Shown here piece by piece: positions 17,375 to 62,861 of a stretch of 64,000 bases of DNA. A model generated the notes under the pieces. That model was given only the letters and a program-made list of their open reading frames with translations. It did no database searches and was not told where the DNA came from. Position numbers and translations under genes: made by a program. Numbering within the stretch: position 1 is the stretch's first letter; every line of letters starts with the position of its first letter. Source of the stretch: Hemerocallis citrina. Lineage: Eukaryota > Streptophyta > Magnoliopsida > Asparagales > Asphodelaceae. The stretch is from NCBI GenBank assembly GCA_017893485.1, contig CM030367.1:90779121-90843120 (forward strand), in the 5' to 3' direction.

Positions 17375-17656
17375 CAGCTGGCGTCTCTCAGTTTTAGTTT
17401 TCACGTGCTTCCGGAAATTGAGCTCTAGAAGCCCTTTTGGAGGTGTTATGTGCAGTTCTCTTCTATTGATGTCAACATCTGGAACAATTGCTTCCACAAA
17501 TGGGACCCACACAGTTTGACCAGTAGCACCTACGACTGGATTTGATGGATTAGAGTGATCAAACTCTTCTTCTGTCGATTTAAGCAAGACCTGCAGAAGA
17601 TCGCTAGCACCAAAGTTGAAAACATTGGTTACCTCTCCCACCAATCCACCTGTTTC
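17375..17656 (-). CDS. RimM gene exon 6 (PRC-barrel)
   Basis: 282 bp, 94 codons. It reads ETGGLVGEVTNVFNFGASDL, then LQVLL, GQTVWVPFVEAIVPDVDINR and LHITPPKGLLEL. This is the RimM PRC-barrel signature: G.v..v.n.Ga.D.l.v, then the VPFv..iVp.VD...k.i.i..P.GLle block. Borders are TTTTCAG at the acceptor and GTTAGTC at the donor, phase 0. Confidence 0.93.
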
Positions 17657-18202
17657 CTGAAAAGATACAACCTTCTCTATTTTAATGAGCAGAATCATTC
17701 TCTGCCAAAAGAAATAGAACCAGAACAACAACAAAAATATACTGAAGAAATGTCTAGTGAATATTCTGTTCAGCCAGCCCTCCAACTGAAACCAAATGTA
17801 CAGATCCTGAAATAGTAGGTGTCCAACATCATTAAATATTATGATGCTTAGGGTCGATACATGCACAAAGTGACCTGCAATGGAAGGTAAAAGAAATATA
17901 TAATATTATAGGAAAAACTCTCAGATAACATCCGAAAGGGGACACCAAGCACGTAATACAGAAAAGACAAACGCACCATTTTAAAGGGGCTATAGGAGTC
18001 AAAATGGTGGAATCCATTGCACTTGCAGCATAATAGGATTAAATTTCCTGTAGCATCTTTCTTTTTGAATTTATTACATTTACAAAGAAAATGAAGAAAA
18101 CAAGAGCAGTTTCTTTCTTCAACTCTGGGTAGGGCCTATAAATTCTAAAAGTTGATACTAGCATGATAACTATCAAGAAAAGCAATAGATTAGAGGCTAA
18201 AC

Positions 18203-37271: not shown

Positions 37272-40200
37272 TAGGGGTGGCAACTGGGCCGGGTCAACCG
37301 GTGACCCGACCCGCGACCCGGCCCACGAACCCGGCCCGCTTAAGAACTTCACGGGTTCAGGTCGAACCCGGTGAACAGTACCGGATCGACCCGGATCGCA
37401 ATTTACGCGAATCGAATTTGCGAAACCCGGCCCACGAACCCGTTTAATTCGCGAATTGAACCCGTTAACCCGCGGTTCGACCCACGGGTTTCGACCCGTT
37501 CGACCCGTACGGGTCGAACGTTCGACCCGTGACGGGCCGACCGTTCGACCCGCGGGCCGACCGGTCGAACGGGTCGAAACCCGCAGTTCGAACCCGGGCT
37601 GACGCTGGCGTTGGCAGCAAACGGCTCTTAGAGCCGTTGCTGTGCAAACGGCTATTTTTTTTTTTCCCCACTTCTAAGCCTATAAATATCCCCTAAAAAT
37701 CTCAAAAAAAATTACACCTCACTCTCTTACTCTCTCTACTATTATACATCATTTTAAAGAAATTTTTGAACAATTGTAGTATTCATCAAATAATTGTACA
37801 AGAAGGCATATACACGATCAAATTTCGGTCGTATCGGAAACAAAATTCAACGTCTTCAACGTCTTCAACTCTCTTCAACCTCTTCTCAACTCTTCAATTG
37901 TGGAATCGGCAAAGCGCTCCTCCATCTTTTCTATTATATTCTTATTTTCCCGGTTTTTTTTACATACGCGTATTCTACGGTGAACGGTATCAAAATTTCT
38001 CTACCTCTCTTGTTAAATTTTTTTTGCGTTGTAGTTAAAATTATTGTTTGTTTTTGAACTTCTCTATCTCAACCCTCTTGTTTTTTAGATTTTTTTGTAT
38101 AATTCACCGCTCGGTCCGCTCCTACATTGTAGTTTTTTTTACATATTTGAGCACATTACCACATTATGTCTAGATCACGTGGTAGCGGTCGTAACAGACA
38201 AGATTCCTCCTCCTCTTCACGTAGGCCACCAATTGTCCCAATTAGTGAGCCCACCCAAGATTACATTGATCCTACTATGGAACAATGGGGTACACACGAC
38301 ATGGATGTTGTAGGTGACATTCAATTAGAAGAAGAACAACAACAACAACCCAAAACCACACAACCCCGTAGTAGTAGGAAAAGTAAAGGAGAAACTAGCG
38401 ATTGGCACAAGTTTTATGAGTATATTCCGGACGAACATATTCCGGGTGTAGGTTTGAAAGTGTGTAAAACATGTAGTAAAACATACAAATTCAAGAGGGG
38501 TGACGGCACCGGTACAATTAGTAGACACATACAACATAATCATAAAGAACTTCTTGACCAAATACAAGGCCAACAAAAAATTAACCCTAGGACCGGTCAA
38601 GTAGATAGCCACCCTTATGATCCCGAACTTGTTCGTCGGGAAATGGCCCGATTAGTCATTAAGGAAGAGTTGCCATTTTTCTATCCCGAGAGTAGGAACT
38701 TGGAAAATTTTAATCAAACGGCCTTAAACCCTCATTTTAAAAGAATTCCGAGAAATACTTGCAAATCAGATTGTTTTAAAGTGTACATGGAAATGAAGGA
38801 TGCTTTGATTGCAATTTTATGAAGTTTAACTTGTAGGGTTAGTTTAACTTCGGATTGTTGGACGGGTGTCAACAATATTCCAACGATGGGAATAACCTGT
38901 CATTGGATCGACAATGATTGGATTCTTCATAAAAGAATCATATCACTTGTGTCGTTGCCGTATCCCCATAGTGGCGCAGAAATAGCAAACCGTATTATAG
39001 AAATATGTGATGTTTTTCATATTCGCGATAATATTATGGCTATTAGTTTTGATAATGCATCTAACAACAATGTAGCAATTACTACTTTAAAATCTGTATT
39101 AAACCCTCCATCTGACAATATTTTTCATGTTAGATGTGCATGTCATATTATAAATTTATGTGTTCAAGATGCATTAAAAATAGATGATCCATATATACAT
39201 AAAATTAGAAATTGTGTACATTTCATTGCATTAAGTCCAAGCATTTTACAAGAATGGAAAGTCTAGTGTAGGGTTAGAAATGTTCCTTTTAGAAAATTTT
39301 CAAAGGATGTTAGACACCGATGGAATTCTACTTTTGATTTACTGAATGTTGTCACCGATTATAAAGCAGTTGTAAATGATTTTTGTATCGCAAAAAATAT
39401 GCACAATTTTGAAATGACTCCCAACGATTGGTATTTTGCCGAAGCTTTGTTGAAATTTTTAGAACCTTTTAAAACCGCAACTTTAAAATTTTCAAAAACA
39501 TATGAATCTACTTCTAGTAGCATTTTTATTGAATTAGTTAGCATGATGCAAATATTTAACGAAATGTTAAATGATCCCTATATTAGTGACATTGTAATAC
39601 CTGCATTTCAAAAAATTTTGAAATATTATTTTTCCTCCTCCTATGTTGATTTGTGTTGCTACTGTTATGGATCCTCGTATCAAATTAGAAGGTACGAAGA
39701 ATTTGATAGAAATGTTTTTTGGATATTTAGATAACAATGTAGAATTAACAATTGATTGCGCTACTTTTTTAGTTCAGTTTGAATCTACATTAAATAACTT
39801 GTATGATTATTATGATAGACGTTTTGCTTCTAGTAGTACAACTTCTGTAGTTAGTTCTTCTTCTGGTAGTTCTAAAGGTAAGGGTAAAAGTAGAATTGGT
39901 GATAGAACATTTAGTCTACTTGAACAAATTCAATCTAAAAAACCTAGGACTAATCAACCAAATGAATTAAATTGGTATAACCAACAGGATACTGAGCCTA
40001 CTCTTTCCCCACTAGATATTTTACAATGGTGGAAAGAACATGAACACACTTTTAGTATTCTGTCTATTATGGCTAAAGATTTGCTAACTCCTCCTGTCTC
40101 TACAGTTGCTTCTGAGAGTGCATTTTCTACAAGTGGCAGGGTTCTATCTGATTACAGAAATCGGTTGAAGCCCAAGGCGTTGGAGATGCTCGTTTGCACA

Positions 40201-41083
40201 GAAGACTGGCTGAAGGCTGAAGATAGGATGCAAGGGAAAGCATTATCAAGTTCTACAAGTGGGAGCAACTCGCCCGAAGAACAACAACAACAACAACAAC
40301 AACAATAGCTTTTCTTCTTATATTAAATTAGAAAAATTGTAGTCAATTAAAATTGTACATAAGAAATATTGTATAAAACTTATTTGTGAATTGAATTCTT
40401 CATTTCGTTATAAATTGTTCAAATTGTATCACTTAAATTCATATGAATAAAATTTCAAAATTTGTTGTCAATTTCACTCTTTCAATCTTATTATTATTAT
40501 TATTATGATTTTTTTTGTTTATTAGTATTATTACTTACTTAGTATTATAATTAAACATCATTTGGGGATATTTGATTCAATTTGAAGAATTGTAGTATTA
40601 TTACTTATTAGTATTATTACTGAATTACATACTTAGTATTATAATTAAACATCATTTGGGGATATTTGAAGAATTGTAGTATTATTACTTATTAGTAGTA
40701 TTACTTAATTAGTATTATAATTTTTTAAGAAATGTAATATTCATCAAACAAAAATATGGTAGTTCACTTGTTTGTATAATTGTATACATCATTTGTAAAA
40801 TTATTATTATTATTAGTTCAATTTAAGCTACCAAAAAAAAAATAAAAAAAATTATATATATATTTTATTAAGCGGGCCAACCCGCGGGTCGACCCGGCCC
40901 AACCCGGGTTGAGCTAAAGGGTTCACGGGTTGGGCGGGCCACCCAAATAAGGAATTGACCCGGCCCGGCCCGGCCCGGCCCGGCCCGCATAAGACGCCAA
41001 CCCGGCCCGGCCCGCCTACTCGAGCGTGCCAACCCGCACGGGTTGGGCCCGGACCGGCCCGTTAGACCCGTTCGCCACCCCTA
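37272..41083 (+). mobile_element. hAT (Ac-like) transposon inserted in RimM exon 3
   Basis: A 3812-bp element with inverted ends TAGGGGTGGC...GCCACCCCTA and perfect 8-bp TSDs. GC-rich subterminal regions are packed with CGACCCG and CCCGGCCCGG repeats (37290-37590 and 40870-41060), as in plant hAT elements where they bind transposase. It contains one transposase gene (38166-40308), now broken. Confidence 0.95.
38166..40308 (+). pseudogene. hAT transposase (BED zinc finger, RNase H-like core, hATC)
   Basis: The frame starts MSRSRGSGRNRQDSSSSSRR. A BED zinc finger lies at residues about 80-126 (Cys100, Cys103, His121, His124/126). The core has LTSDCWTGVNN (first catalytic Asp), SFDNASNNN (second Asp) and CHIINLCVQDAL. 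The hATC region is near the C-terminus (SPLDILQWWKEHEHTF, ASESAFSTSGRVLSDYRNRL), followed by a poly-Gln tail from (CAA)n. It is broken by TGA at 38820, TAG at 39265 and a frameshift near 39640, all inside otherwise good coding sequence. The element is therefore probably immobile unless served in trans. Confidence 0.92.
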
Positions 41084-44901: not shown

Positions 44902-45615
44902 ATGATCACTTGACACTTGCTACTTGTTACTTGTACATGATACATGATTACTTGACACTTGTTACTTGTTACTCGTTTACATACCACTCGACACTTGTTA
45001 CATGCCACTTGCACCCATTTACCTTGCCATGATACTTGCTCTGTTCTTGACTTAGAGTTAGTTGCTCTATTTTGCTGTTACATCTTTCATGCTACACTTG
45101 CTTCCGCTATTACTTTATTCCTGTCTTTTTGTTTTCTTCTGTACTTGTTGCCTGCAATACAAGCGGCCCGTAACTTGCATTGACGGGCGTTTGTTTTCTC
45201 TTTTCCTTTTCTGCAAATTTGTCACTTGCATACCTTGGTGACCAGCTGCCCGATGGAGTAGGTGATCAAAGATTCTAGTTGGCTGGAGTTCTTGTTACAT
45301 TTATTCTTATTGCTTATCTTGAATAATTTGTAACTTGTTATATGGATATTTGTATTGGGCATTTTGTCAAAGACTTGTGTTTTGTTCCAGACTTGATTAT
45401 TTGAGATTTAGTATTCTTGTTTTTGTTTCAAGTAATCTTGTTGACTATATTAATTCAGTTATTCATGCATTTTTTACTATTCATCTTGTATATCTCTTGC
45501 TTATTCTTATATATGTTGTAAAGATCCTTACAGCTTATGAATGGTGAAAGCCATTCGCTGGACTTGTGTCGTGTACTTTTATTTCGTATTCCTTTTTGGG
45601 AAGCGGGGCGTGACA
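44902..45615 (+). repeat. Partial 5' LTR of element Y
   Basis: It matches 62148-62861 and ends GGGAAGCGGGGCGTGACA. The upstream 2.7 kb of the LTR is missing at the junction with the Z-family LTR. Small ORFs shared with the 3' LTR (44959-45183 and 62205-62429) reflect LTR similarity, not a gene. Confidence 0.85.
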
Positions 45616-45625
45616 GGGTTTTTAG

Positions 45626-45637
45626 TGGTATCAGAGC
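45626..45637 (+). promoter_or_regulatory. tRNA-iMet primer binding site of element Y
   Basis: TGGTATCAGAGC, ten bases after the LTR end (GGGTTTTTAG spacer). Confidence 0.9.
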
Positions 45638-45703
45638 ACCGGGTTCGGCTAATGTATTAGCTCGACTAATATATTAGACAAGTTTGGGCTCGATCAAGGA
45701 TTG

Positions 45704-45785
45704 ACTCAACAGTGTACAGACCATGCAATAACATGAATGAATTAACTCAACAGTGTACAGACCATGCAATAACATGAATGAATTA
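45704..45785. repeat. 41-bp tandem duplication in Y leader
   Basis: The unit ACTCAACAGTGTACAGACC...GAATGAATTA occurs twice in direct succession between PBS and gag. Confidence 0.85.
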
Positions 45786-45833
45786 TAATCAACATTGATC
45801 TAGATGCTAATTATTTTTGGGTTTGTGCAGGCC

Positions 45834-46340
45834 ATGGTTCGTAGAGGTCCCATATCCCGTCCACAGGAGGAACAACCTGTACTTGAGGCTGTTACAAATG
45901 TTCTTGAGCGGTTGATCAACATGCAGCAAAACTACAGTGACCTTGTGATGGCTGCTTTGGAAGCTGCCTGGGTTCCGAATTTCGCTGTGCCTACACAGGC
46001 AGCTCTTCCTCCTCGTCCGGGTACAGTTACAAATTTTATGAGGCTGCACCCTGACAGATTCTCGGGCACTGAGACGCCTTTGGATGCTGAACAATGGCTG
46101 ATAAGGACAGAACAGTTATTGTTGGCAACAAGAGTTGCCGATGCTGATCGAGTGGATGTGGTGACCATCCAGCTGGTGGACCTGGCCCACATATGGTGAA
46201 GGATCGAGTCCGAAAGGCTCATGCGGCCTATTGCTTGGGCCACATTCACTAGGAGCTTCTTGGAGAAGTTCTTCCCTAGCAGTACTCGGGTTAAAATGAA
46301 GCAGCAGTTCCTGGCCCTGAAACAGGTTGGTCATTGTTCT
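45834..46340 (+). pseudogene. Gag N-terminal part of element Y
   Basis: It starts MVRRGPISRPQEEQPVLEAV and contains MRLHPDRFSGTETPLDAEQW and the capsid-like WATFTRSFLEKFFPSSTRVK segment, typical of Tekay-type gag. One in-frame TGA occurs at 46197, where the family has W. The frame stops shortly before the inserted element; the C-terminal gag and zinc knuckle are missing. Confidence 0.85.
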
Positions 46341-46954
46341 ATTAATTGGAACATTGTTACATATTGTCACTCCCCGCTTCCCACTATAAGGAAATACAGG
46401 CACGCAACTGAGGCCCAGCGAATGATATACATCATCCATAAGCTGTACAATTATTAGCTCAACAAGATCTTTATAACATATTCACGCAGGCAAATATAAT
46501 AATCACATGAGCTGAAAATAGAATAACCATCATCTGAATAATACATCAACATCGGGTCAAGATGCCCGGAAGTACAAGATACCAGAATTAAAATAATATG
46601 ATAAGCAGTTCGCTATAACAACTAGATAAAATAGCGACTGAAAGAAAAACAACATGAAGTAGTAACGAAGCAGCAACGATCATCTAGAGAGTCTGCTCGT
46701 CGGGTCCATCAGTACCTGTATAATTATTAACTCAAAGAAAAATAGAAAAGTTCCCGTTAGAGCAAGTTTCGGGCAACAAGTAGCAACAAGCAGAAAAAAG
46801 GGTAATATAACAAGATATAACATGGAAGAAACAAGAATTAGAAGTACAAATACAATATGGAAGTAAGCAAAGAACTGGGACAATATGATCATGTAACTTA
46901 CCTAGTGTATTCTAGACTTCGAGATAAAAGCAATTGATAACCTAGGCTCAGTTA

Positions 46955-47310
46955 ATCGATAATCATGTAATCAAGGATCGAGAGTCATGTAATCAAGAGT
47001 CATGTAAACAAGAATCATGTAATCAAGAGTCTTGTAATCAAGAGTCATGTAATCAAGAATCATACTTAGTGAAGATCTCAAGTTTATCTGTTTTATTAAC
47101 TTATCTAATGCACGTAATCCTGTGTCCCATACCACAAGTTCGGTGTATATCAATCATGTGACGTTTAGACTTAAGTAGTGAATTCTATAGGATTATGTAC
47201 TCGGGTCTTCCAGTGATAGTATCAAGACATGTAATCATGAATCATGTAATCGAGAATTATGGAATCAAGAATTGTGTAATCAAGAATCAAGAATCAAGAA
47301 TCACTATTTC
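46955..47310. repeat. Tandem 15-bp words (ATCAAGAATCATGTA type)
   Basis: Clusters of ATCAAGA(A/G)TCATGTA at 46970-47070 and 47220-47310. The same words occur at 52395-52495, 52660-52735 and 63050-63260. The reverse-complement form (ACTTGATACATGATT) fills 61890-62020 and 62150-62260 in the Y LTR. Confidence 0.8.
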
Positions 47311-48778
47311 GGGAAACACGGGCCCCCTTCCGAGTATACTCCCCTATATTGTCCACAATTAAGTCGTACCCTTATAACCCCGGCTTGTTATTCTTTTATA
47401 ATTAATTATGAAGATGCAGTTGGTACGACTAGTGGAACGGTGTAATCAAATAGTTTAGTCAAGGAAAATATCAAGGGCAGTAATCATGAGACGTAAAACG
47501 AGTACATGTATCGAGAGTAGTTATTATAGAATTATCAAGTGGTATAAAATGTATGCTATCAACCTATTATATCTGTGCAAATTATTATTACACGAACAAT
47601 AATACATTCAGTTCATTAAATATGAAAAAAAATAATGGGTTTATATGAAAAAATGTATAGATGAATTTTCAGACAACTTGACATATCTGCATTCAAATTC
47701 ACTTTCCCGTTGTTACAGAAAAACAAATCCAATTCCGTCAGATATTCTAGAAAGTAGACTCTCTTCCGGTTCTAACGCATATTCACACGATACATTCTAG
47801 AGAAAGTAGCTATGCGTACAAATTCATTTTTCGCTGGTTTCGATGTTTCGCGCACATTCTGGAAATTCGGAGTCACAATACTAAAACTGCGATATCTCAC
47901 AATCTATATATCGGATTGAGAAACCGTAATATGTTTTGGATATCTAGACTCGAAGGGTTACGATTTTCATGTAGAAAGTTTTTCGATCCAGTATCAAGAA
48001 CATGGTCAAATTCTCAGTACGAGATACAGGTTAGTAATCCCGTGCAGGTTCAAAAATTCACGATATGATGGTACTAAAATCGCGATATCTCACAATCTAT
48101 ACATCCGATTGAGAAACCGTAAGATGTTCTGGATTCGGGACTCGATAGGCTACGATTTTCATGTAGAAAATCATCAATCCAGTATCGGAAACATGGTCGA
48201 ATTCTCAGTGCAAGGTCAAGAAATTTTAGAGATAGTAAGGTTGAATATTCGATATTCGATAACACGATTCGAAATGTGTTAACGGTTCACTGTTGAGTTG
48301 ATATAGAATGGAACCAATGACTAGAATGGAGTTTGACAATAAAATATGATGATAACTAGACTACTTGCTACGAGTTCAAGGAAAATGCTTGTATGAGAAC
48401 AAAAATAGTGTACAAGGTACTTGCCTTATAACGTGATGATTTTGGTGGTGGTGTTAACCGCGGAAAGAAGAAGCAACATCGGAAACGGACGGTGGCACAA
48501 CGGCGGTAAGAATGGCGGCAAGACGGTAGCTAGCAAGCAGCGGTAGCAACGGTGAGCGACGACAACAACAAGGTGGCGCGGCGTCGGGTTATTTTTCGAG
48601 GTTCACGGGATCGTAGAAGCGGAGTCGGTGGCTCGAAGATGGAAGGTAAAGTGGAGCTTGGGTGTTGCTTGAGCTCTCGGGTGTGAAGAAGGCAGAGGAA
48701 GAGAAAGAAGGAAAATGAATAATGAGATGTAGATAAGAGAAGAGAAAGAGGTGGGAGGTTCTACATGTGTGTGTGTGT

Positions 48779-48787
48779 ATATATATA
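48779..48787 (-). promoter_or_regulatory. LTR TATA box downstream of LOG (left LTR)
   Basis: TATATATA beside a (GT)n run, about 0.57 kb downstream of the LOG stop on the minus strand; the right copy is at 54500-54509. If it is the LTR promoter, LOG lies wholly in U3. Confidence 0.5.
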
Positions 48788-49360
48788 GAAAGGAAGAGGT
48801 GCATGGGGTGTAGAAAAATCAAAGTGCATGGGGTGTAGAAAAATCAAACATGTGTGTGGAAAAAAATGAGAAGTTAGGCGTAGAAGGAGAAAATGAGGGG
48901 TTAGTGGGGATTAGGTCAGAAAATAGGAATAAGGAGGAGAAGTCAGGAGTAGGAGTTAGGCGTAGAATTAGGCAGGATTCGGATTAGGATTAGGATTAGG
49001 ATTAATCAGGGTTTAAAATTTGTATTTAAACTCCGATCGAAAAATCACAAAATTATAGAATTGATCAGAAAAATATTCTGGCTTTAGATAAATAGTCCAA
49101 AGAAAAAAATAAAACTGATCTGAAAATTGAAGTACAAAAATTCACGTAGTAAAATACTTACTACTGGAACAGGGAGTTACAATCCTACCCACAAAAAAAA
49201 TTTCGTCCTCAAAATTTACTTAGGTGGGATATAGGATAGCTAAGAAGAATGCAATACTCTTCAACTGAGAGTGCAACGGAAGATAAAAGAAACAAAGAGT
49301 ACAAAGACACGAAAACAACTAAAGACAAATTGTGCACCCTCAACTGAAGGACTCAACAAT

Positions 49361-50086
49361 TTAATGTCTAGGCTCAGAATCTGAACCACCGACATCGCTA
49401 ACATCCCAGTTCAGCTGAGTCACAAGCTCATCTCGCTCTGACACATACTCTTCTAATTTTCTGAGTAACTCCTTAGGCGAAGGTGCTGAAATCAAGATGC
49501 GTCTGGCCTTACTGGATATAAACTCCTCAGCCACAGCTGAATCTATGAAGGACAGAAGTGAGTCGTAATATCCATCAACGTTTAAAATACCCACCGGTTT
49601 GCTGTGGATTCCCAGTTGAGCCCATGTGATCACTTCAAATAACTCCTCAAGTGTTCCATAACCTCCGGGCAAGGCTATGAAAGCACCAGCAGCACGAGCC
49701 ATTTCAGCCTTCCTCTCGTGCATGTTAGAGACAACTCTAACATCTCCCACAGTTCTCCCAGTAATCTCTTTCGGCATCAGCGACTTGGGAATCACTCCCA
49801 AAACGTGTCGGCCACCAGCACGAACAGCGTCGAAAACTAGGCCCATTAATCCTATGCTCCCACCACCCTAGACGAGATCGATATTCCTTTCTACAAGCTC
49901 CTTGCCGAGCTCGATCGCGGCTTCCTGGTAGCTAGCTCTTTTGCCCGAGCTACTGCCACAAAATACACAAATCCTGCCGAATCTCGATAAAGATGAAGAA
50001 AGCTTCATCTTCTTCCCTGCTTCACTTTCTTCTTCCACCGATTTTCTCTTCATCCCCGCTACCGATTCTTGATCTCTTCTTTCCAT
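49361..50086 (-). pseudogene. LOG: LOG cytokinin-activating enzyme, intronless retrocopy 1 (one stop codon)
   Basis: LOG hydrolyses cytokinin riboside 5'-monophosphates to the free base in the cytosol. The 241-codon frame starts [16 protein letters not shown]. It has [17 protein letters not shown] (residues about 38-54), [10 protein letters not shown] (74-83), [10 protein letters not shown] (122-131) and [20 protein letters not shown] (140-159), the substrate/catalytic motif of LOG proteins. Its only break is TAT to TAG at codon 73, immediately before GGGSIG. The length fits the family, with an N-terminal extension of about 25 residues. Plant LOG genes normally have several introns and none occurs here, so it is a retrocopy. 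It lies 369 bp inside the LTR, sense to the element. Confidence 0.93.
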
Positions 50087-50089
50087 TTG

Positions 50090-50425
50090 CCAAGAAAATC
50101 CGAGCTACTAATCTTTCTCTTGCTTTCTTGCTCCCGCCTCTGCTACCGGCTTCTCACTTTCTCTCTTCTCCGAAGCTTGCTCCCGAGTTGCCTTCTTCTT
50201 TCTCTTCTTTCCTTTCTTCCCCGACCTCTCTCTCTCTTTCTTTCTTCTCCGTCTTCTCTTTCTTTCTTCTTCCTTCTCCGACTTCTCTCTCTTTCTTCTT
50301 CCTCTTTCTTTCTCTTTTTCTTTCTCTCTTTTTCTTTCTCTCTTTTTCTTTCTTCTTTCTTTGACTTCTCTCTCTCTCTTTCTCTTCTTTTTATTTCTTC
50401 TTCTTCTTGTCTTTTCTTCATTAAT
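50090..50425. repeat. Polypyrimidine tract upstream of LOG copy 1
   Basis: A (TTTCTTTCTCTC)-like run on the plus strand, purine-rich on the sense strand, between LTR start and LOG start. ORFs here (Phe/Ser/Leu-rich or Arg/Glu/Lys-rich) are compositional. The counterpart is 55800-56115. Confidence 0.9.
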
Positions 50426-50455
50426 GCACCGCCCCCTATAACCGGACTATGGCCA

Positions 50456-51060
50456 ATATTTACACTTTGTTTCCTATCCATTCTAAATATAACATCGAAC
50501 CCTTAGATGTTGATGTTTCTAGATGCTGATATCACGTGATAGCGATCGATGAATTGAGCAGAATTAAGAGATTGGTAACACGAAGATGTTGGTTGTCAAA
50601 CTTATTTGGTAAAGTGGGCCCCACCCACCAAACAATGTTGAAAAATTGTGGCAAGATTGGTGCCGCAAAGAAAAATGGGAGAAATGAAAATAAATAATTT
50701 GTCAGTTACTCATTTCTCATTCCTATAAATGAGAGGTTTAGGAAGAAGAAAAAAATTAAGCAAGATAAGAACAAGAAACAAGCAGAAAAGAAGAAAAGAA
50801 TAGAGTGTATATTTGTAAGGTGTAGTAATACCAGTTTTAGAAAATAGTGAAGAGTCTTCTTGTTGTTATTCCAATTTCCAATTTGTTTGCTAAAAGCCCA
50901 ACAAAATTCCTACTCTCTTCCAACAGAAGATTCAAGAAAATAGGGATAGAAAGAAATAACTAGTATGATACTCAATAATGGATTGATCGATGAGAATGAA
51001 TGCAATGTATAGAAGGCAACATGCAACAAACGACGCAGGAACTGAAGAATCAAAATATAC
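50456..51060. other. Interior of the LOG element next to the 3' LTR
   Basis: It contains the candidate solo LTR at 50587-50903 and otherwise AT-rich non-coding sequence. No convincing polypurine tract was found beside 50456, so the plus-strand primer site may be degenerate. Confidence 0.5.
50587..50903 (+). mobile_element. Candidate short solo LTR (copia-like)
   Basis: 317 bp from TGTTGGTTGTC to AAAAGCCCAACA, with matching inverted ends TGTTGG/CCAACA and a CCTATAAATGAG box at about 50732. No PBS follows and no TSD was seen (GAAGA against AAATT). Confidence 0.5.
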
Positions 51061-51727
51061 CAGCAACTGTTTCTTTGGTGGTCTCTGCCTTTTCTGTAAT
51101 CAAGTTATGAGCCTGATTACACTCTCCAGTATGTCCTCCACTGGGATTTGATCCTCCTATTGGTGTGACACTCTTTCTCTTCGGGCAATCTCGAACCTTG
51201 TGATCATTCGCTCCGCATGCAAAACACAGGTTGTTGGCTTTTCAGCAGTTCTTGCGTATGTGTTCAACTCGACGGCAATAATAGCACTTCCGGTCCTTCT
51301 TCGGAGTCGCCGATGGGTAAGGTGATGTTCTAGTAGTCGGGGTCTGAACTGGCCTCCGTATCGGTCCACCTGTAGACTGTGCGACAGTAAGAAGATGTAA
51401 TGCCTCCTGAACGGCATTCCACCCTCTACAGATCTGCTCTTGGGTATCAAGCATGGCGGTGTAACTCTTATGCTGGTGCACAAACAAATCCCATTGAATG
51501 GAGTTTGCGACATCCTGTACCCTATCCAGATTAGCTCTCACCAGTTCATTTTGTCCTTGCTGTAGCTCCATCATTCGTCGCATCTCCTGGAGAATGGCAA
51601 CGATCTCCGATAGTTCATCCCTGGGTGTAGAAGTCGAAGAACCTCCGTGAATCATAGTCTGAAATGCATATTCGAATGGGGTAAATCTCCAGATGGCAAG
51701 TTGGTTATTAACATTCATGTGATCCAC
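51060..51727 (-). pseudogene. Gag remnant with two zinc knuckles, LOG element interior
   Basis: The minus frame starts MDHMNVNNQLAIWRFTPFEY. A coiled-coil-like segment follows (ELSEIVAILQEMRRMMELQQ), then CYYCRRVEHIRKNC, a stop at 51241, and CFACGANDHKVRDC. Both knuckles fit CX2CX4HX4C. The capsid core of a normal gag is missing between the N-terminal part and the knuckles. No pol follows. RNA binding is the only gag activity that the remaining sequence would support. Confidence 0.75.
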
Positions 51728-51768
51728 GTGGTGTGTATATTGTTGAGCTTAGCATGGTTCGAGCCTAG

Positions 51769-51780
51769 GCTCTGATACCA
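51769..51780 (-). promoter_or_regulatory. tRNA-iMet primer binding site of the LOG element
   Basis: TGGTATCAGAGC on the minus strand, nine bases after the LTR end TGACA (spacer GGTTTTTAG, almost the same as in element Y). Confidence 0.88.
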
Positions 51781-53060
51781 CTAAAAACCTGTCACGCTCC
51801 GCTTCCCACTATACGAAAATACAGGCACGCAACTGAGGCCCAACGAATAATATACATCATCCATAAGCTGTACAATTATAAGCTCAACAAGATCTTTATA
51901 ACACATTCACGCAGGCAAATATAATAATCACATGAGCTGAAAATAGAATAACCATCATTTGGATAATACATCAACATCGGGTCAAGATGCCTGGGAATAC
52001 AAGGTACCAGAATTAAAATAATATGATAAGCAGTTCGCTATAACAACTAGATAAAATAGCGACTGAAAGAAAAACAACATGAAGTAGTAACGAAGCAGCA
52101 ACGATCATCTAGAGAGTTTGCTCGTCGGGTCCATCAGTACCTGTATAATTATTAACTCAAAGAAAAATAGAAAGTTCCTGTTAGAGCAAGTTTCAGGCAG
52201 CAAGTTGCAACAAGCAGAAAAAGGGGTAATATAACAAGATATAATATGGAAGAAACAAGAAGTAGAAGTACAAATACAATATGGAAGTAAGCAAAGAACT
52301 AGGACAATATGATCATGTAAGTAGTAACTGTAACTAGTGTATTCTAGACTTCGAGATAAAAGCAATTGATAACCTAGGCTCAGTTAATCGATAATCATAT
52401 AATCAAGGATCGAGAGTCATATAATCAAGAGTCATGTAATCAAGAATCATGTAATCAAGAGTCTTGTAATCAAGAGTCATGTAATCAAGAATCATACTTA
52501 GTGAAGATCTCAAGTTTATCTGTTTTATTAACTTATCTAATGCACGTAATCCTGTGTCCCATATCACAAGTTCGGTGCATATCAATCATGTGACGTTTAG
52601 ACTTAAGTAATGAATTCTATAGGATTATGTACTCGGGTCTTTCAGTGATAGTATCAAGATATGTAATCATGAATCATGTAATCGAGAATTATGTAATCAA
52701 GAATTGTGTAATCAAGAATCAAGAATCAAGAATCACTATTTTGGAAAACACGGCCCCCTTCCGAGTATACTTTCCTATATTGTCTACAATTAAGTCGTAC
52801 CCTTATAAGCCCGGCTTGTTATTCTTTTATAATTAATTATGAACATGCAGTTGGTACGACTAGTGGAACGGTGTAATCAAATAGTTTAGTCAAGGAAAAT
52901 ATCAAAAGTAGTAATCATGAGACATAAAACGAGTACATGTATCGAGAGTAGTTATTATAGAATTATCAAGTGGTATAAAATGTATGCTATCAACCTATTA
53001 TATCTATGTAAATTATTATTACACGAACAATAATACATTCAGTTCATTAAATATGAAAAA

Positions 53061-53358
53061 CTGGAATGACCAATAAATCCTAATTTGGACAAGTATTCGA
53101 TTTTATATGAATTTTGCAAGTGATGATAGAAATACAGTGAAACATAGAGCTCACTGGTTTGTACCATGTCCATAGAAATGGGTTTAAACTTGTACTTCAC
53201 TAGCTTAGAGTTGTTGTTTGAGGTCAAGAAACATGTCATGGATGTGAGTATGAGTTAGGACTTAAGTGATCTAAAGTTTCTTGCTAATAGTAGCCCATAA
53301 TTGCTTGTAGAGCCCAATATAGACAACGGTGTTCAATGTTTGAATTGGAAATTGTATT
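53061..53358. other. Block of about 300 bp present only in the right LTR
   Basis: Left LTR (near 47630) and third LTR (near 63785) read straight from AATATGAAAAA to GGGTTTATATG. The right LTR has about 300 extra bases here. No inverted ends or clear TSD were seen. A minus-strand 66-codon frame has no recognised motif. Confidence 0.7.
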
Positions 53359-55081
53359 GGATTTATATGAAAAAATGTATAGATGAATTTTCAGACAACT
53401 TGACATATCTGCATTCAAATTCACTTTTCCGTTGTTATAGAAAAGCAAATCCGATTCAGTCAGAGATTCTAGAAAGTAGACTCTCTTCCGGTTCTAACGC
53501 ATATTCACACGATACATTCTAAAGACAGTAGCTATGCGTACAAATTCATTCTTCGCTGGTTTCGATGTTTCGCGCGCATTCTGGAAATTCGGAGTCACAA
53601 TACTAAAACTGCGATATCTCACAATATATATATCAGATTGAGAAACCGTAATATGTTTCGGATATCTAGACTCGAAGGGCTACGATTTTTATGTAGAAAG
53701 TTTTTCGATCCAGTATCAGGAACATGGTCAAATTCTCAGTACGAGATACCGGTTAGTAATCCCGTGCAGGTTCAGAAATTCACGATATGATGGTACTAAA
53801 ATCGCGATATCTCACAATCTATACATCTGATTGAGAAACCGTAAGATGTTCTGGATTCGGGACTCGATAGGCTACGATTTCCATGTAGAAAATTATCAAT
53901 CCAGTATCGGAAACATGGTCGAATTCTCAGTGCAAGGTTAAGAAATTTTAGAAATAGTAAGGTTAAATATTCGATATTCGATAACACGATTCGAAATGTA
54001 TTAACGGTTCACTGTTGAGTTGATATAGCATGAAACCAGTGACTAGAATGGAGTTTGACAATAAAATATGATGATAACTAGACTACTCGCCACGAGTCCA
54101 AGGAAAATGCTTGTATGAGAACAAAAATAGTGTACAAGGTACTTGCCTTATAACGTGATGATTTTGGTGGTGGTGTTAACCGCGGAAAGAAGAAGCAACA
54201 TCGGCAACGGACAGCGGCACAACGGCGGTAAGAATGGCGGCAAGACGGTAGCTAGCGAGCAGCGGTAGCAACGGTGAGCGACGACAACGACAAGGTGGCG
54301 CGGCGTCCGGTTATTTTTTGGAGTTCACGGGATCGTAGAAGCGGAGTCGGTGGCTCGAAGGTGGAAGGTAAAGTAGAGCTTGGGTGTTGCTTGAGCTCTC
54401 GGGTGTGAAGAAGGCAGAGGAAGAGAAGGAGGGAAAATGAAGAATGGGATGTAGATAAGAGAAGAGAAAGAGGTGGGAGGTTCTGCATGTGTGTGTGTGT
54501 ATATATATAGAAAGGAAGAGGTGCATGGGGTGTAGAAAAATCAAAGTGCATGGGGTGTAGAAAAATCCAACATGTGTGTGGAAAAAAATGAGAAGTTAGG
54601 CGTAGAAGGAGAAAATGAGGGGTTAGTGGGGATTAGGTTAGAAAATAGGAATAAGGAGGAGAAGTCAGGAGTAGGAGTTAGGTGTAGAATTAGGCAGGAT
54701 TAGGATTAGGATTAGGATTAATCAGGGTTTAAAATTTGTATTTAAACTCCGATCGAAAATTCACAAAATTATAAATTTGATCAGAATAATATTCTGGCTT
54801 TAGATAAAGAGTCCAAAGAGAAAAATAAAACTGATCTGAAAATTGAAGTACAAAAATTCACGTAGTAAAATACTTACTACTGGAACAGGGAGTTACAATC
54901 CTACCCACCTTACAAAAAAAATTTCGTCCTCGAAATTTACTTAGGTGGGATATAGGATAGCTAAGAAGAATGCAATACTCTTCAACTGAGAGTGCAACGG
55001 AAGATAAAAGAAACAAAGAGTACAAAGACACGAAAACAACTAAAGACAAATTGTGCACCCACAACTGAAGGACTCAACAAT

Positions 55082-55794
55082 TTAATGTCTAGGCTCAGAA
55101 TCTGAACCACCGACATCGCTAACATCCCAGTTCAGCTGAGTCACAAGCTCATCTCGCTCTGGCACATACTCTTCTAACTTTCTGAGTAACTCCTTAGGCA
55201 AAGGTGCTGAAATCAAGATGCGTTTGGCCTTACTGGATATAAACTCCTCAGCCACAGCTGAATCTATGAAGAACAGAAGTGAGTCGTAATATCCATCAAC
55301 GTTTAAAATACCCACCGGTTTGCTGTGGATTCCCAGTTGAGCCCATGTGATCACTTCAAATAACTCCTCAAGTGATCCATAACCTCCGGGCAAGGCTATG
55401 AAAGCATCAGCAGCACGAGCCATTTCGGCCTTCCTCTCGTGCATGTTAGAGACAACTCTAACATCTCCCACAGTTCCCCCAGTGATGGCGACTTGGGAAT
55501 CACTCCCAAAACGTGTCGGCCACCAGAACGAACAGCGTCGGAAACTAGGCCCATTAATCCTATGCTCCCACCACCATAGACGAGATCGATATTCCTTTCT
55601 ATAAGCTCCTTGCCGAGCTCGATCGCGACTTCCTGGTAGCTAGCTCTTTTGCCAGAGCTACTGCCACAAAATACACAAATCCTGTCGAATCTCGATAAAG
55701 ATGAAGAAAGCTTCATCTTCTTCCCTGCTTGACTTTCTTCTTCCACCGATTTTCTCTTCATCCCCGCTACCGATTCTTGATCTCTTCTTTCCAT
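55082..55794 (-). pseudogene. LOG: LOG cytokinin-activating enzyme, intronless retrocopy 2 (13-bp deletion)
   Basis: It has the same start and end as copy 1 ([16 protein letters not shown]... to ...GGSDSEPRH). It is 713 bp against 726 bp, and the difference is one 13-bp deletion near 55484-55485, after VIPKS. This shifts the frame to a stop at 55396. Codon 73 is intact Tyr here ([17 protein letters not shown]). The downstream part retains [20 protein letters not shown] and [14 protein letters not shown], with Ser in place of the usual Thr in PGGYGT. It has no introns. Lesions differ from copy 1, so each arose after the LTRs separated. Confidence 0.93.
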
Positions 55795-55799
55795 TTGCC

Positions 55800-56115
55800 A
55801 AGAAAATCCGAGCTACTAATCTTTCTCTTGCTTTCTTGCTCCCATCTCTGCTACCGGCTTCTCACTTTCTCTCTTCTCCGAAGCTTGCTCCCGAGTTGCC
55901 TTCTTCTTTCTCTTCTTTCCTTTCTTCCCCGACGTCTCTCTCTCTTTATTTCTTCTCCGTTTTCTCTTTCTTTCTTCTTCCTTCTCCGACTTCTCTCTCT
56001 TTCTTCTTCCTCTTTCTTTCTCTTTTTCTTTCTCTCCTTTTCTTTCTTCTTTCTTTGACTTCTCTCTCTCTCTTTCTCTTCTTTTTTCTTCTTCTTCTTG
56101 TCTTTTCTTCATTAA
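55800..56115. repeat. Polypyrimidine tract upstream of LOG copy 2
   Basis: The same CT-rich run as 50090-50425 with length differences. Confidence 0.9.
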
Positions 56116-56189
56116 TGCACCGCCTCCTATAACCGGCCTATGGCCAATATTGGCCCTATAACTGGTATCATGTCAGAGGCTTGGAACAT

Positions 56190-56590
56190 TGTCATAGGTG
56201 GTGATGTTGTTGTTTATTCTCGAGAGTGCAAGCAGAGTCCCGTGGCTATTGTGGCGCAGATTTCAAGGCGAACCTGATTATCATTGGGAATTCAGGATTC
56301 GACATCATTCTCGGTATGGATTGGTTGGGTGAATCCCATGCTGTCATTGATTGCCGTGCCAAGAAAGTTGTATTCCGAATTCCAGGTCGTGCAGAGTTTG
56401 AGTTCCATGCTAGGGAGATGCCCCTAGGACGAGCTGAGACTGTAGATGATCAGGAGAATTGTGCGATGGAATTGTACTCAGGCTGTGAGGCTGCACCTCT
56501 AGTATTGCAAGAATTCCTGGATGTTTTTCCATAGGAGTTGCCCGACTTACCCCCTGATAAGGATGTGGATTTCGGTATTGAAGTTTAGCC
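56190..56590 (+). pseudogene. Protease C-terminal part of element Y
   Basis: It reads CGADFKANLIIIGNSGFDII and LGMDWLGESHAVIDCRAKKV, the ILGMDWL block after the gypsy protease. The DSG/DTG active-site segment is absent upstream. Stops occur at 56532 and 56586. Confidence 0.8.
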
Positions 56591-56597
56591 TGGTACG

Positions 56598-57300
56598 ATG
56601 CTGATATTGAAGGGTCCTTACAGGATAGCATCAATTGAGCTAGCATGGCTGAAGGTGCAGATTCAGGATTTGCTAGATTTAGGGTTCATCAGGCCCAGTG
56701 TTTCGCCATGGGATGCTCCAGTTCTTTTTGTTAGCAGGAAGGATGGTAGTCGTCAACTGTGCATCGATTATCGGGAACTGAACAGTGTTACTGTGAAGAA
56801 CCGGTATCCGCTGCCCAGGATCGATGACTTGTTTGATCAGTTTGGCGGAGCAGCTATTTTCTCGAAGTTGGATCTTCGTTCAGGGTATCATCAGGTCAAG
56901 GTGAAGGTAGCAGATGTGCAGAAGGCTGCGTTCAGGACCAGATATGGGCACTATGAGTATCTTGTGATGCCGTTCGAAGTCACAAATGCGCCAGCTGTGT
57001 TCATGAGTCTTATGAACAGGGTCTTTTCTCCGTTCCTGGATAGATTTGTGGTAGTCTTCATCGATGACATTCTAGTGTATTCTCGGAACCGGGAGGATCA
57101 TGTTGAGCATCTGAGGTTGGTTCTGCAGACTTTGAGGGAGAATCAGCTCTATGGAAAACTCAGCAAGTGCGAGTTCTGGCTTGACAGAGTTATCTTCTTG
57201 GGGCACATCATCTCGGGCAATGGTATCTCCGTGGACCCGTCCAATGTTACAGCTATGAGAGATTGGTCAGTTCCCAAGTCAGTTTCGGAGGAAGTTTCTT
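56598..57300 (+). pseudogene. Reverse transcriptase of element Y
   Basis: Gypsy RT blocks are in order: [75 protein letters not shown] and [13 protein letters not shown] (FIDD catalytic loop intact). The frame is open for 236 codons, then shifts near 57290. The expected G in the MPFGLTNAP block is E. Confidence 0.92.
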
Positions 57301-57840
57301 TAGTCTAACTGGTTATTATCAGAAATTCGTCCAAGATTTTTCGATAATTGCAGGGCCTTTGACGAAGCAGACCCGAAAGGATCAGAAGTTCTGGTTGTCT
57401 GAGGCTTGCAGTGAGGTTTTTTCTGAGTTGAAGAGCAGGTTGACGTCAGTGCCAGTGTTGACTATTCCAGATGGTTCAAGCGAATTCGTGGTTCACTGTG
57501 ATGCTTCTGGCAAGGATCTTGGTGCAGTTCTAATGCAGAACGGCCGAGTTGTTGCTTATGCATCGAGGCAGTTGAGGCTGCATGAGAAGAACTATCCGAC
57601 TCATGATTTGGAGTTAGCGGCAGTGATCTTCGCTTTGAAGCTGTAGAGACACTATTTGCTTGGAAACCGAGTTGAGATATTTACCGACCACAAAAGTCTC
57701 AAGTATGTTTTCACCCAAAAGGAATTGAACATGAGGAAAAGGCGTTGGTTGGATTTTATGGCCGACTATGACATCAGTTTGCAATACCATCCTGGTAGAG
57801 TGAACTTGGTGCCGGATGCGTTGAGCAGGAGATCGACAAC
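57300..57840 (+). pseudogene. RNase H of element Y
   Basis: It has [32 protein letters not shown], a TAG at 57644, then IFTDHKSLKYVFTQKELN and PGRVNLVPDALSRR. The four acidic positions expected of RNase H (D, E, D, D) are visible. Confidence 0.88.
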
Positions 57841-58930
57841 TATGTTCCTAACTCAGCAGAGAGATTTGGTTGATCAGATGCGAAGGTTGGAGTTGAATGT
57901 GTTGTTGTCGAGTTCTGATCGGAGTTGTTTGGTGCTTCAGCTCCAGTCGTATCTTGTTGAGCAGATTAAAGAGGCTCAGGTTGGTGATGAGCAGTTGCAG
58001 GGATTCAGGGCAGAAGTTGAAGCTGGTTCCAGAATGGATATGGTTATTCATGCAGATGGATCGCTTATTTTTAAGTCCAGGTTGTGTGCCCCGAAGGGTG
58101 AAGCTCATCGGAGGTTGCTTGAGGAAGCCCACCAGTCGTCGTATTCTATTCATCCTGGAGGTACTAAGATGTATCGGGACTTATAGCTTCACTTCTAGTG
58201 GCATGGTATGAAGATGGTTGTGGCTCGGTTTATGTCTCAGTGTTTGATATGCCAGCAGGTGAAGGCAGAGCATCAGAGAACCGCCGGTTCTTCAACCGCT
58301 TCCCATTCCGGAGTGGAAGTGGGAACATATCACTATAAATTTTGTGACTACTTTGCCGAGGAGTCCCAAGGGTCACAATGCCATTTGGGTGATTGTCGAC
58401 AGACTGACGAAGAGTGCTCACTTCATTCCCTTTTGAGTCGGACAGTCTACTGAGAACCTAGCTGAGAAGTAGATGCAAGAGATCGTCAGACTTCATGGGG
58501 TTCCAGTCAGTATTGTATCCGACAGAGATACAAGGTTCATGTCTCAGTTTTGGGAGAGTCTTCAGAGTAGTTTGGGGAGTAAATTGAAGTACAGTACAAC
58601 TTTTCATCTCCAGACAGATGGACAGTCAGAGAGGACCATCCAGACTCTAGAGGACATGTTGAGGTCCTATGTGTTGCAGTTCGGTGAATCTTGGGAGGAC
58701 CATTTGCATCTTGTAGAGTTCTCGTACAATAACAGCTTTCAGGCCAGTCTTAAAGCTGCACCGTTCGAGGCACTTTATGGGCAGAAGTATAGATCACCAG
58801 TGTGCTAGGATGACATTGGTGAGAGAAAATTGTTGGGTCCGGAGTTAATCACCAGGACAGTTGATACAGTGACTCAGATCAGCAAGCATCTTCAGGCAGC
58901 GCAAGACAGGCAACAGAGATGAGCAGATGT
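57841..58930 (+). pseudogene. Integrase of element Y
   Basis: The zinc-binding region (HQSSYSIHPGGTKMYRDL, then [17 protein letters not shown]) is followed by a frameshifted core. [12 protein letters not shown] sequence near 58390 holds the first Asp. VSDRDTRFMSQFWESLQ (second Asp) and GQSERTIQTLEDMLRSYV (Glu) are in the open frame 58473-58808. Stops occur at 58186, 58807 and 58919. Confidence 0.88.
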
Positions 58931-58943
58931 CCATAGGAGAGTT

Positions 58944-59372
58944 TTGGAGTTTGAGGTTAGTGACCATGTTTTTCTAAAGGTATCGCCGTGGCGAGGTGTC
59001 ATTCAGTTTGGTGATGGGGGCAAGTTGAGCCCTAGATTTATCAGACCGTTTGATATCGTTGAACGAGTAGGCAAAGTGGCCTATCGTCTTACATTGCCAC
59101 CGGCTTCATCCGGAGCGCACGATGTTTTTCATGTCTCACAACTCAGGAGATATATCTGTGATGAGAGCCATGTGATCGACTACTTATAGTTGACCGTGCG
59201 GACGGATTTGACTTGTGAGGTTCCGCCAGTTGCTATCTTAGACCGGTGAGAGAAAGTGCTGATGAACAAGGTCATCAAGCTGGTCCGTGTTTCTTGGAAT
59301 CCTCACTCGCCAGGTGAGTCGACTTGGGAATTGGAGGAGGAGATCCAGCAAAAGTTTCCTCATCTATTTGAG
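58944..59372 (+). pseudogene. Integrase C-terminus and chromodomain-like tail of element Y
   Basis: It has GVIQFGDGGKLSPRFIRPFD (GPF-type module), AHDVFHVSQLRRY and, after a stop, VLMNKVIKLVRVSWNPH and ESTWELEEEIQQKFPHLFE. The order fits Tekay/Del chromoviruses. Confidence 0.85.
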
Positions 59373-59472
59373 TAGCTTTTTGTTTTGTTCTTTCTTTCCC
59401 TTTCGGGGTTACCCTATGTACCTCCTGTTTGAATTTCGAGGACGAAATTCTTCTTGTTAGGTGGGTAGGATT

Positions 59473-60212
59473 TGTAACCCATGTTTTCCATTTTCTTGTA
59501 TTTTGAATGTATTTTCTTTTTCTGAGTATTTATTCATTTTGTACTCTTCCGTTTCTTATTAATTGTGTATTTGTTCTTCGTTCTCCATAATCAATCTATC
59601 TGTTTTGACTTTGACTACATTTTCTGGTCTTAAATAATTTCCTGATTCAATTTAATTTAATTTTTCTGTCCAAATTTATTGTCTCCGATTGAATCTGTTT
59701 AACTCTAATTAATTGTTGTTTATGGCCTATTTGATTGTTGTCTAATTCCATGTCCTATATCCTTTTATTGGATCTTCTAATAAACCCATTGAAGCCCCAA
59801 ACCCTTTTATCACTGTCTTCTTATTGGGTTAAAACCCAATATCCATTAACCCTAATCATCTCCTATTAATACCCTACTGTTTACAACCTAACCCTAATAT
59901 TATACCTAAACCCTAGCCGCTCCTATTACTCATCGCGATCCCCTTTGACTTGCTCTCTCCCTCTCTCCCGTGTACCCTCATCCTCGTCTCCCTCCTCTCG
60001 AGCAACACCAACCACTCAGCCCGACCCTTCTGCAAATGCCAGGCCCTTGCGCCTGCCTGCTCCCAGCACATCGACATCCAGTAGCAGCAGCTGTGTTGCT
60101 TTCCCCCAACGCCAGACAGACAGCACATCAAAGACAGCAGTAGCGACCACTGTCGCTGCTGTCCGCCGCCTGCTGTCGCCCGTTCAACCATCGTCGTCCT
60201 CCCGACAGTGCC

Positions 60213-60263
<51 letters not shown>

Positions 60264-62861
60264 TGTGAACACGTTGTTCTGCGTGTAGGGTTTGTGATTA
60301 TTGTGTTCGTGCCCGGGAATCCGTTCCTGTTATTCTTATTTTTCGTCGGATTCGTCGTCAATTACAAGGCAAGTAACTTGTATTCCTTTTGTTGTATAAT
60401 ACACATACTAAATACCGTCTGTAATATGGCTTTTGATTCTAAATTCATTCCCATGAAAATCCCTTGTTAGATCTTGTCTCTATTTGTTGATCCATCCGTA
60501 TTCATCCTTTATTACACACACGACATGAAATTAACTTAGATCTAATTAATTCTTGATGCTTGTATGTTGATGTTCGTAATCCATGATATGTGGTATGAAT
60601 CTTGCATTCTTGATGTGTTAGTTGTAGTATATCTTGTGGTAGATTTGTAAAACACCCATGCCATGTTGTTTGGACATCTATTATACCATGCGTTTTGTTT
60701 TAATTTGGATTTATCGCATATGAACTATTTGATTTCATACATGAAAACATTTCTGTTTTTGCTGCTGCCCCGTTTTTGTTCAGTATTTTTGACCCTGTTA
60801 AGGTTAGTAAATCAAATTTATTTGTGAATACAAATCGTAGACACTGTTGTCTATTTTTCAGAATTTCTGACAGATCTCAATTTCGATTTGTGAGTTGCAA
60901 GTTATTGCTGTTTTACTACAGAGGTAGAAAATTCCAGATTCGATTTTATGTGAATTCTGTGGAGTTATTTAGTGTAATACTGATGTTAAAGATAAGATTT
61001 TGACCTAATATTTTTCTGGATATGACTAGACTTGACTGGGATTAACCCCAATTTTTTAAAGATTTATTTAATGATGTTTATAAACTATTCTATACCTATA
61101 AACAATTACTATATTTCCAGAAATTTCATGCTGTTCAGTAAAGAACCAAGTTTTCAACCTAATTCTAGTTACAATTGGTAAAAACTTTGTAAACATTAAA
61201 TTTAGCCTACTATATCTATTTTATCACCCTTTTGACGAATTTGAATTTTGATTTATACTTTGGAATCTATCGCTGTTTTAGTACTGCTGTGTTTGAGGTT
61301 TCAGATTTGCAAACTTACTGTATCTTGCTGTTTTATGATTTTATTGGAATGCTATCCATGTTAGAATATTATGAAATTATATTTGCTGATACTAGACACA
61401 CTGGGAAATACTCCAGATTTTTCTAGGATTTAAGTTTTTATGCCATTTTCATGCTTGTGAATACAATCTTGTGATTTCTGGCTGAACATGTTTTCTGTGT
61501 ATAATTCTGTTTTGAGCCCTGATTCTGGAATTATTATATGACTTGTATATATGTGCTGGATTCGGACGAGAGTCTATTTTCTAGATTTTCTGACGGATAT
61601 AGATTTGCATGTCTTTGGCAATGGGAATCCCAGATTTAGTGCAGTACTGTCTTGCTGTCCAGAACTAGAATTTTCGTTGTCTTAGTCTATTTTGAGTCAT
61701 TCGTCATATGTTCATATCCTTTATTCAACTTGTACTTGTACCTTGTTGTCTTGCCATGTTTCTCTCCTTGTTTGTGCACGTCCATGCTTTCTTGAGTAGT
61801 AATAATAAGAAATTAAGTCGGGGTTAAAGGAAAAGATCTAATAATGGAAAATACAGAAACGTGTATTCGGAAGGGGATCCATAGATCTTACGTGATACTT
61901 GATACATGATTACTTGATACTTGACACGTGATTACTTGACACTTGCACACTTAACACGCGATACTTAATACTTGATGCTTGATACTTGATACATGATTAC
62001 TTGATACTTGTCCCTAAGTACACTGCCCTCTATGATCCACTATGAAATCTAAAATGTAACTTGTTTGAATGTAGCAACCATGTAGTAAAAATTTGGGACG
62101 CATGAAGTGCTACCTAGATCGGACTAGATACAAGACTTGAAAACAACATGATCACTTGACACTTGCTATTTGTTACTTGTACATGATACTTGATTACTTG
62201 ACACTTGTTACTTTTTACTCGTTTACATACCATTAGACACTTGTTACATGCCACTTGCACCCATTTACCTTGCCATGCTACTTGTTCTGTTATTGACTTA
62301 GAGTTAGTTGCTCTATTTTGTTGTTACATCTTCCATGCTACACTTGCTTCCGCTGTTACTCTATTCTTGTCTATTTGTTTTCTTTTGTACTTGTTGTCTG
62401 CAATACAAGCGGCCCGTAACTTGCATTGACGGACGTTTGTTTTCTCTTTCCTTTTCCTGCAAATTTGTCACTTGCATACTTTGGTGACCAGCTGCCCAAT
62501 GGAGTAGGTGATCAAAGATTCTAGTTGGCTAGAGTTCTTGCTACATTTATTCTTGTTGCTTATCTTGAATTATTTGTAACTTGTTACATGGATATTTATG
62601 TTGGGCATTTTGTCCCATACTTGTGTTTTGTTCCAGATTTGATTATTTGAGATTTAGTATTCTTGTTTTTGTTTCAAATAATCTTATTGACCATATTAAT
62701 TTAGTTATTCATGCATGGTTGACTATTCCTCTTGTATATCTCTTGCTTATTCTTGTATATGTTGTAAAGATCCTTACAGCTTATGAATGGTGAAAGCCAT
62801 TCGCTGGACTTGTATCGCGTATTTGTATTCTGTATTCCTTTTTGGGAAGCGGGGCGTGACA
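59473..62861 (+). repeat. 3' LTR of element Y
   Basis: 3389 bp from TGTAACCCATGTTTTCC to GGGGCGTGACA. It follows a weak polypurine tract (AGGTGGGTAGGA). It has telobox-like CCCTAA words (59820-59925), a (CT)22 run (60217-60260), AT-rich sequence, and ACTTGATACATGATT-type tandem words (61890-62260). No gene was seen; the ORF at 59945-60268 is compositional. Confidence 0.85.
60217..60260. repeat. (CT)22 microsatellite
   Basis: An uninterrupted CT run in the Y 3' LTR. Confidence 0.95.

Follow-up and report, generated by a model that had tools for sequence, protein, structure and literature searches.

Results

Two LOG copies in a pair of long direct repeats

The 64,000-nucleotide stretch of Hemerocallis citrina DNA analysed here (the window) contains, on its minus strand, an element with two direct repeats, 46365-50460 and 51790-56151, whose two main BLAST pieces show about 95.6% identity. 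A preliminary description of this DNA had reported paired 4.1-4.4-kb repeats with a primer binding site (PBS) just inside, and both features were confirmed: the PBS TGGTATCAGAGC, which we take to be of the tRNA-iMet type, lies at 51769-51780 (minus strand), 9 nt beyond the end of the inner repeat. Each repeat carries an intron-free LOG sequence in the sense orientation of the element, LOG being the enzyme that releases active cytokinin from its riboside monophosphate. The left copy (49361-50086) has 726 coding bases and the right copy (55082-55794) has 713, with start codons at 50086 and 55794, which lie 374 and 357 bp in from the respective edges of the repeats. Both copies match Pfam PF03641 (E = 5.9e-46 left, 7.4e-35 right), and the best solved relative of the left reading frame is 2a33 (E = 5.8e-67). 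An active enzyme is plausible for the LOG of this element because the motifs PGGYGT and MHERK, presumably those of a LOG phosphoribohydrolase, are present and the left copy retains 93 of the 98 positions that are invariant across 25 plant LOGs. The two window copies themselves are broken by separate lesions, an in-frame stop at codon 73 on the left and a 13-bp deletion on the right. They differ from one another at 14 replacement codons (one being the stop) and 4 silent codons, and thus decay about neutrally.

The preliminary description had also placed an intronless LOG within each LTR. Its account of the LOG copies held, but the repeats turned out to extend beyond the true LTRs. On the 3' side of LOG in each repeat, the motif GAGGACGAAAT...GGTGGGTAGGAT is followed by TGTAACTCCC, at 49181 and 54897 (the tract is shorter in the left copy), such that the joint between the polypurine tract (PPT) and TGTAACTCCC is found 3' of LOG in the two repeats. 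Within the Ty3/gypsy element that surrounds the locus, GAGGACGAAAT...GGTGGGTAGGAT occurs in exact form once, at 59438, immediately 5' of TGTAACCC, and the motif regions of the two elements align at 75% (E = 5e-7). This placement, together with the fact that TGTAACTCCC is nearly an inverted repeat of the LTR end, suggested that the LTRs start at 49181 and 54897 and that LOG lies outside them. These are also the positions at which the LTRs begin in relatives with target duplications.

With these borders, the locus can be followed on the minus strand from a truncated first unit into a second, more complete one. The first unit breaks off inside internal sequence at 56151-56200 (no strand assigned), where the flank shares with the relatives only 13-base words expected by chance; there follow its LOG with the 13-bp deletion and a pol-end remnant with PPT (54898-54934). 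A middle LTR (51790-54897; 3108 bp) is common to both units and has a TATA-like site at 54509, upstream of the LOG of the last unit. The internal region of that unit (50465-51789) is of the long type described below and includes the PBS and a nucleocapsid-like ORF (51242-51727) whose zinc-knuckle match is weak (E = 0.025, below the Pfam cut-off). Next come a GA-rich leader 5' of LOG (50087-50464), continuous with internal sequence in relatives, the LOG with the stop codon, a pol-end remnant and PPT adjoining the LTR (GAGGACGAAAT...GTGGGTAGGAT; 49182-49212), and the 3' LTR (TGTAACTCCC...GTGACA; 46365-49181; 2817 bp), delimited by the LTR ends of relatives with target duplications.

The tandem is set into a host Ty3/gypsy element at 44902-62861, whose LTR pieces (44902-45615 and 62148-62861) are 93% identical. 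The 5' LTR of this host is cut short, and parts of gag and protease are missing at the insert; its gag match is weak (E = 0.022) and its protease match begins at profile position 90 of 136, so that the host seems to have lost part of both genes. Twelve bases, TTGGAACATTGT, flank the LOG tandem on both sides (46344-46355 and 56181-56192) despite the absence of a 5-bp target duplication, and may be a relic of break repair. At 62863-64000 there is a third LTR, akin to the LOG element but further diverged (about 74-82%), which continues past the window end. Elsewhere in the window, the ORF at 17312-17905 encodes a RimM PRC-barrel domain (E = 3e-12) and might be a host gene that serves 16S rRNA processing, and a hAT-family transposase dimerisation domain lies at 39622-40305 (E = 3e-27).

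LOG is an internal gene in genomic relatives

The 3.78-Gb genome, window included, was searched with a 1.1-kb LOG query, which returned 952 candidates; all 40 that were scored matched at 92-100%, the window among them. Twenty 10-kb stretches, which contain 22 of the 39 other scored places and represent the copies most like that of the window, were then inspected. The order internal region-LOG-LTR and a PBS are found in 20 of 20, and the tail of a 5' LTR precedes the PBS in 19, the tail in L016 being shorter than the 80-base cut-off. Only two depart from the plain plan: the LTR after LOG is rearranged in L025, and L023 is without part of its LTR. The relatives have the hallmarks of LTR retrotransposons, namely TG...CA LTR ends, a short target duplication, a PBS and a PPT. 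The PPT joint is present in 13 of 13 elements inspected and in 10 of 10 further copies. All 13 predicted 5' LTR starts begin with TGTAACTCCC, and the 40 bases preceding them are never the LOG/PPT end. A perfect 5-bp target duplication was found at the TGTAACTCCC...GTGACA ends of all 12 testable elements, the thirteenth 5' LTR start belonging to the tandem L028 and lying outside these tests.

Since the target duplications abut LTR ends that exclude LOG, and since each unit carries a single LOG, LOG travels as a passenger in the internal part of the element, flanked by the PBS side and the 3' LTR, and is present once per unit. The preliminary description had proposed instead that LOG resides within both LTRs and that each insertion spreads two copies. 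The paired window repeats, LOG included, do look this way, but the 12 target duplications and the one LOG per unit in all 20 stretches contradict both claims, and we regard such an arrangement as extremely improbable. Still harder to credit is the idea that a host LOG locus simply multiplied by segmental or tandem duplication: copies are many and some are tandem, but the target duplication differs at each of the 12 tested sites, the PBS, PPT and LTR joints are all alike, and introns are absent.

How, then, did the window come to carry LOG in both of its repeats? Eighteen of the 20 stretches show no second unit within the at least 4 kb examined, and the other two, L014 and L028, consist of tandem units connected through an LTR, the second internal region of L014 being mostly missing. 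Neighbours 3.8-5.4 kb apart form five groups among the best 150 of 1216 LOG protein candidates (see below). The window copy fits the truncated tail of such a two-unit tandem, with a common middle LTR and cut off at 56151, and it is this truncation of an LTR-sharing tandem that gives it the look of a doubled LOG. We had at one time favoured plus-strand synthesis primed, in the window copy alone, from a purine tract upstream of LOG, which would yield a longer terminal repeat, on the strength of that tract and the TGT near the edge; it was dropped because of the continuous sequence of relatives. The repeat edge does lie 4 nt from the element's only site with at least 13 purines in 15 followed by TGT, a threshold chosen after the site was seen. 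However, seven relatives are continuous across this point and have TGC or TAC there rather than TGT, no target duplication was seen where one was sought at 56151, and LTR-sharing tandems occur in the family; we thus consider upstream priming very unlikely.

Family size and state of the LOG frame

An Asparagus LOG protein yielded 1216 loose candidates in the genome, and the best 150 of them, which were scored, all match in one piece; LOG is stop-free in 140 of these 150 and has a stop in 10. An exact 45-base PPT/LTR joint occurs 178 times in the genome (control, 0), and a search of viral contigs with the joint pattern returned none. Ten further copies were chosen from the best 150 for low score or odd frame length. 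The joint was found in all ten, with 1-2 mismatches allowed, and many copies with common LOG/LTR joints are what the preliminary description had named as a supporting check. From the usual start, the frame is complete in six of the ten; two others are open with a later start and two are broken. The LOG element therefore has no fewer than 150 copies, a secure minimum, and probably many hundreds. In a second subfamily (L042-L049), a serine-rich stretch whose length varies lies close to the LOG N-terminus, and frames that are unbroken measure 243-253 aa.

Among the 22 copies at the 20 loci, the LOG frame is uninterrupted in 20. Two size classes of internal region occur: a long one of 1377-1420 bp (9 of 20 elements), which retains a gag-like (nucleocapsid-like) remnant, and a short one of 648-657 bp (the other 11), which has lost gag and leaves LOG as the sole gene that can be recognised. 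Neither leaves room for pol, and the complement of gag and pol genes that marks an autonomous Ty3/gypsy element is absent. At the nine long-type loci, a gag-like ORF of at least 200 aa is open at five, whereas LOG is uninterrupted at eight. A search with the gag-like protein gave 26 candidates, none at E 0.001.

Selection and age

A codon model fitted to 28 copies gave omega = 0.294 and kappa = 4.06 (lnL -3435.4), against lnL -3511.5 with omega fixed at 1 and the best of six kappas. Stops were masked in this analysis, and four of the ten diverse copies (L043, L047, L050 and L051) were left out for their start/end pattern or a length not a multiple of three. W5, which has a deletion, and L028b, an identical duplicate, were left out of all selection counts, and L010 also out of pN/pS and the replacement:silent (N:S) counts. 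Pairwise pN/pS was 0.196 (21 copies). Variants found in a single copy have an N:S of 77:41 (the 77 including two stops), as compared with 27:48 for shared variants (Fisher p = 1e-4). Outside C>T/G>A changes the difference is 42:13 versus 7:24 (p = 3e-6), and within them the contrast is absent (33:28 versus 20:24, p = 0.43). Across 22 copies, the 726 coding columns are free of indels, as against 24 in 620 flanking columns (15/404 before LOG and 9/216 after), a count made without the right window copy, which would add one coding indel, and with flanks that are GA-rich or T-rich and hence indel-prone.

The copies examined are biased towards similar ones, and the 150 are the best scoring, such that decayed copies are under-sampled. 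This bias and the indel-prone flanks make the strength of the selection signal uncertain, with most tests agreeing in direction. In the 11 elements with enough sequence, the LTR tails differ by 0-15 in about 830 bases, which at a rate of 1.3e-8, that used in PMC5664825, corresponds to ages of 0-0.7 million years. Part of the intactness of LOG is thus a matter of youth.

LOG might then be a harmless passenger, useless to element and host alike, which owes its intact frames solely to the youth of the insertions and their descent from a few intact master copies. The young LTR pairs of the 11 measured elements agree with this, as do the single-copy variants, which with 75 replacements, 2 stops and 41 silent changes come near the neutral ratio of about 2.4. 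Shared variants, however, come from replicating lineages and are short of replacements, overall and outside C>T/G>A, and the omega of 0.294, the zero coding indels in 22 copies and the better survival of LOG than of the gag-like ORF at long-type loci also speak against a useless passenger. We therefore consider it unlikely, and favour the reading that the LOG protein is probably maintained by purifying selection.

Origin of the LOG gene

In a comparison with 12 plant LOGs, a branch with support 100/100 has all 14 element LOGs on the same side, as expected if LOG was captured a single time. One tree puts the element LOG beside Iris (support 84/67) and the other leaves its place without resolution; the branch is long, and an Asparagales-like donor is only a lead. 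Plant LOG genes have introns. The element LOG has none, in the window copies or in the best 150 of the 1216 candidates, which match in one piece. Its missing introns and GA-rich leader make capture of a spliced LOG mRNA likely. When an intron-bearing parent was sought in the genome, the best 150 protein matches were near whole-query, in one piece and at 66-73%, like element copies, and a separate search for the parent gene found none. With regard to the earlier proposal that a retroelement had captured LOG mRNA, uptake and spread of an intron-free LOG by a Ty3/gypsy-type element therefore stand, but the intron-bearing parent was not found in these genome searches.

Discussion

Our overall interpretation, to which we assign a probability of roughly 0.75, is that one capture of LOG gave rise to a non-autonomous retrotransposon family whose LOG frame is kept by selection, the window copy being the tail of a tandem. 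According to this model, a Ty3/gypsy-type LTR retrotransposon would have taken up a spliced LOG mRNA, its coding sequence probably accompanied by leader and trailer, between the PBS side and the PPT. The element would then have lost pol and later often gag, resulting in the plan LTR-PBS-short internal region-LOG-PPT-LTR. We infer that this family is copied in trans by movement proteins from a related autonomous element. With LOG in sense orientation in an RNA that would start in the 5' LTR, each transposition would generate one new LOG copy, and purifying selection in the replicating lineage would keep the frame. The LOG protein is probably made and of use, whether to the element, to its host or to the two together.

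When LTR elements capture genes, these are often fragmentary or decaying. In maize, at least 189 captures of gene fragments by LTR elements have been counted (PMC2774510). The nearest known kind to the LOG family is found in pepper, where LTR elements harbour retroduplicated NLR genes, about 72% of which sit in non-autonomous elements without gag or pol, and Ka/Ks indicates purifying selection (PMC5664825). The two cases are alike in placing host genes under purifying selection in gag/pol-less elements, and they differ in that the pepper count is 86-123 NLRs per genome, whereas here one captured LOG serves as the lasting gene of a single family, of which at least 150 copies were scored. A LOG-type YgdH domain is listed for LTR-element consensuses of Citrus and Populus (PMC9289625, citing Steinbauerova 2011), and these resemble our family in having a LOG-family domain in a plant LTR element, a comparison of domain presence alone. 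Additional sense ORFs between pol and the 3' LTR are also known (PMC7264820); they share the position and orientation of LOG, but the elements described there retain gag-pol, whereas LOG elements lack pol and keep gag at most in reduced form. An m6A demethylase domain occurs in orchid Ty3/gypsy elements (PMC9289625), which are similar in that an enzyme gene is fixed in a gypsy family, and they are giant where LOG elements are small and non-autonomous. Finally, Cassandra, a small element without gag-pol genes, forms LTR-sharing tandem arrays (PMC7215508) in which neighbouring units have an LTR in common, the arrangement also seen in the window, L014 and L028, but the units of our family carry LOG. 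Among the publications that our searches listed, PMC9289625 was the only one linking LOG and retrotransposons by its title or the start of its abstract. Our literature searches, on LOG and retrotransposons, gene capture and tandems, turned up no family built around one complete LOG gene, no maintenance of LOG by selection and no subtype with LOG as sole gene.

What might such an element gain from LOG? One speculative possibility, which we hold to be doubtful, is that the retrotransposon uses LOG as a gene of its own, with active cytokinin, released in the cells that express it, favouring dividing or meristematic cells and thereby passage into the germ line. Acutely transforming retroviruses carry a captured growth gene, and the element would be comparable to them. 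If this is true, the subtype with LOG as sole gene would be a minimal hormone-making genomic parasite.

The anatomy of the window also exposes a trap for annotation, in that a gene internal to the element can appear LTR-borne where tandem units share an LTR. Mobile LOG copies can moreover inflate LOG gene counts in genomes of this kind. More generally, one complete hormone-activating gene is present here in at least 150 scored copies, mostly readable and probably under purifying selection, and is the sole recognisable gene in 11 of the 20 elements. The LOG family thus offers an opportunity to test whether a plant retrotransposon may gain from changes that it causes in the cell of its host.
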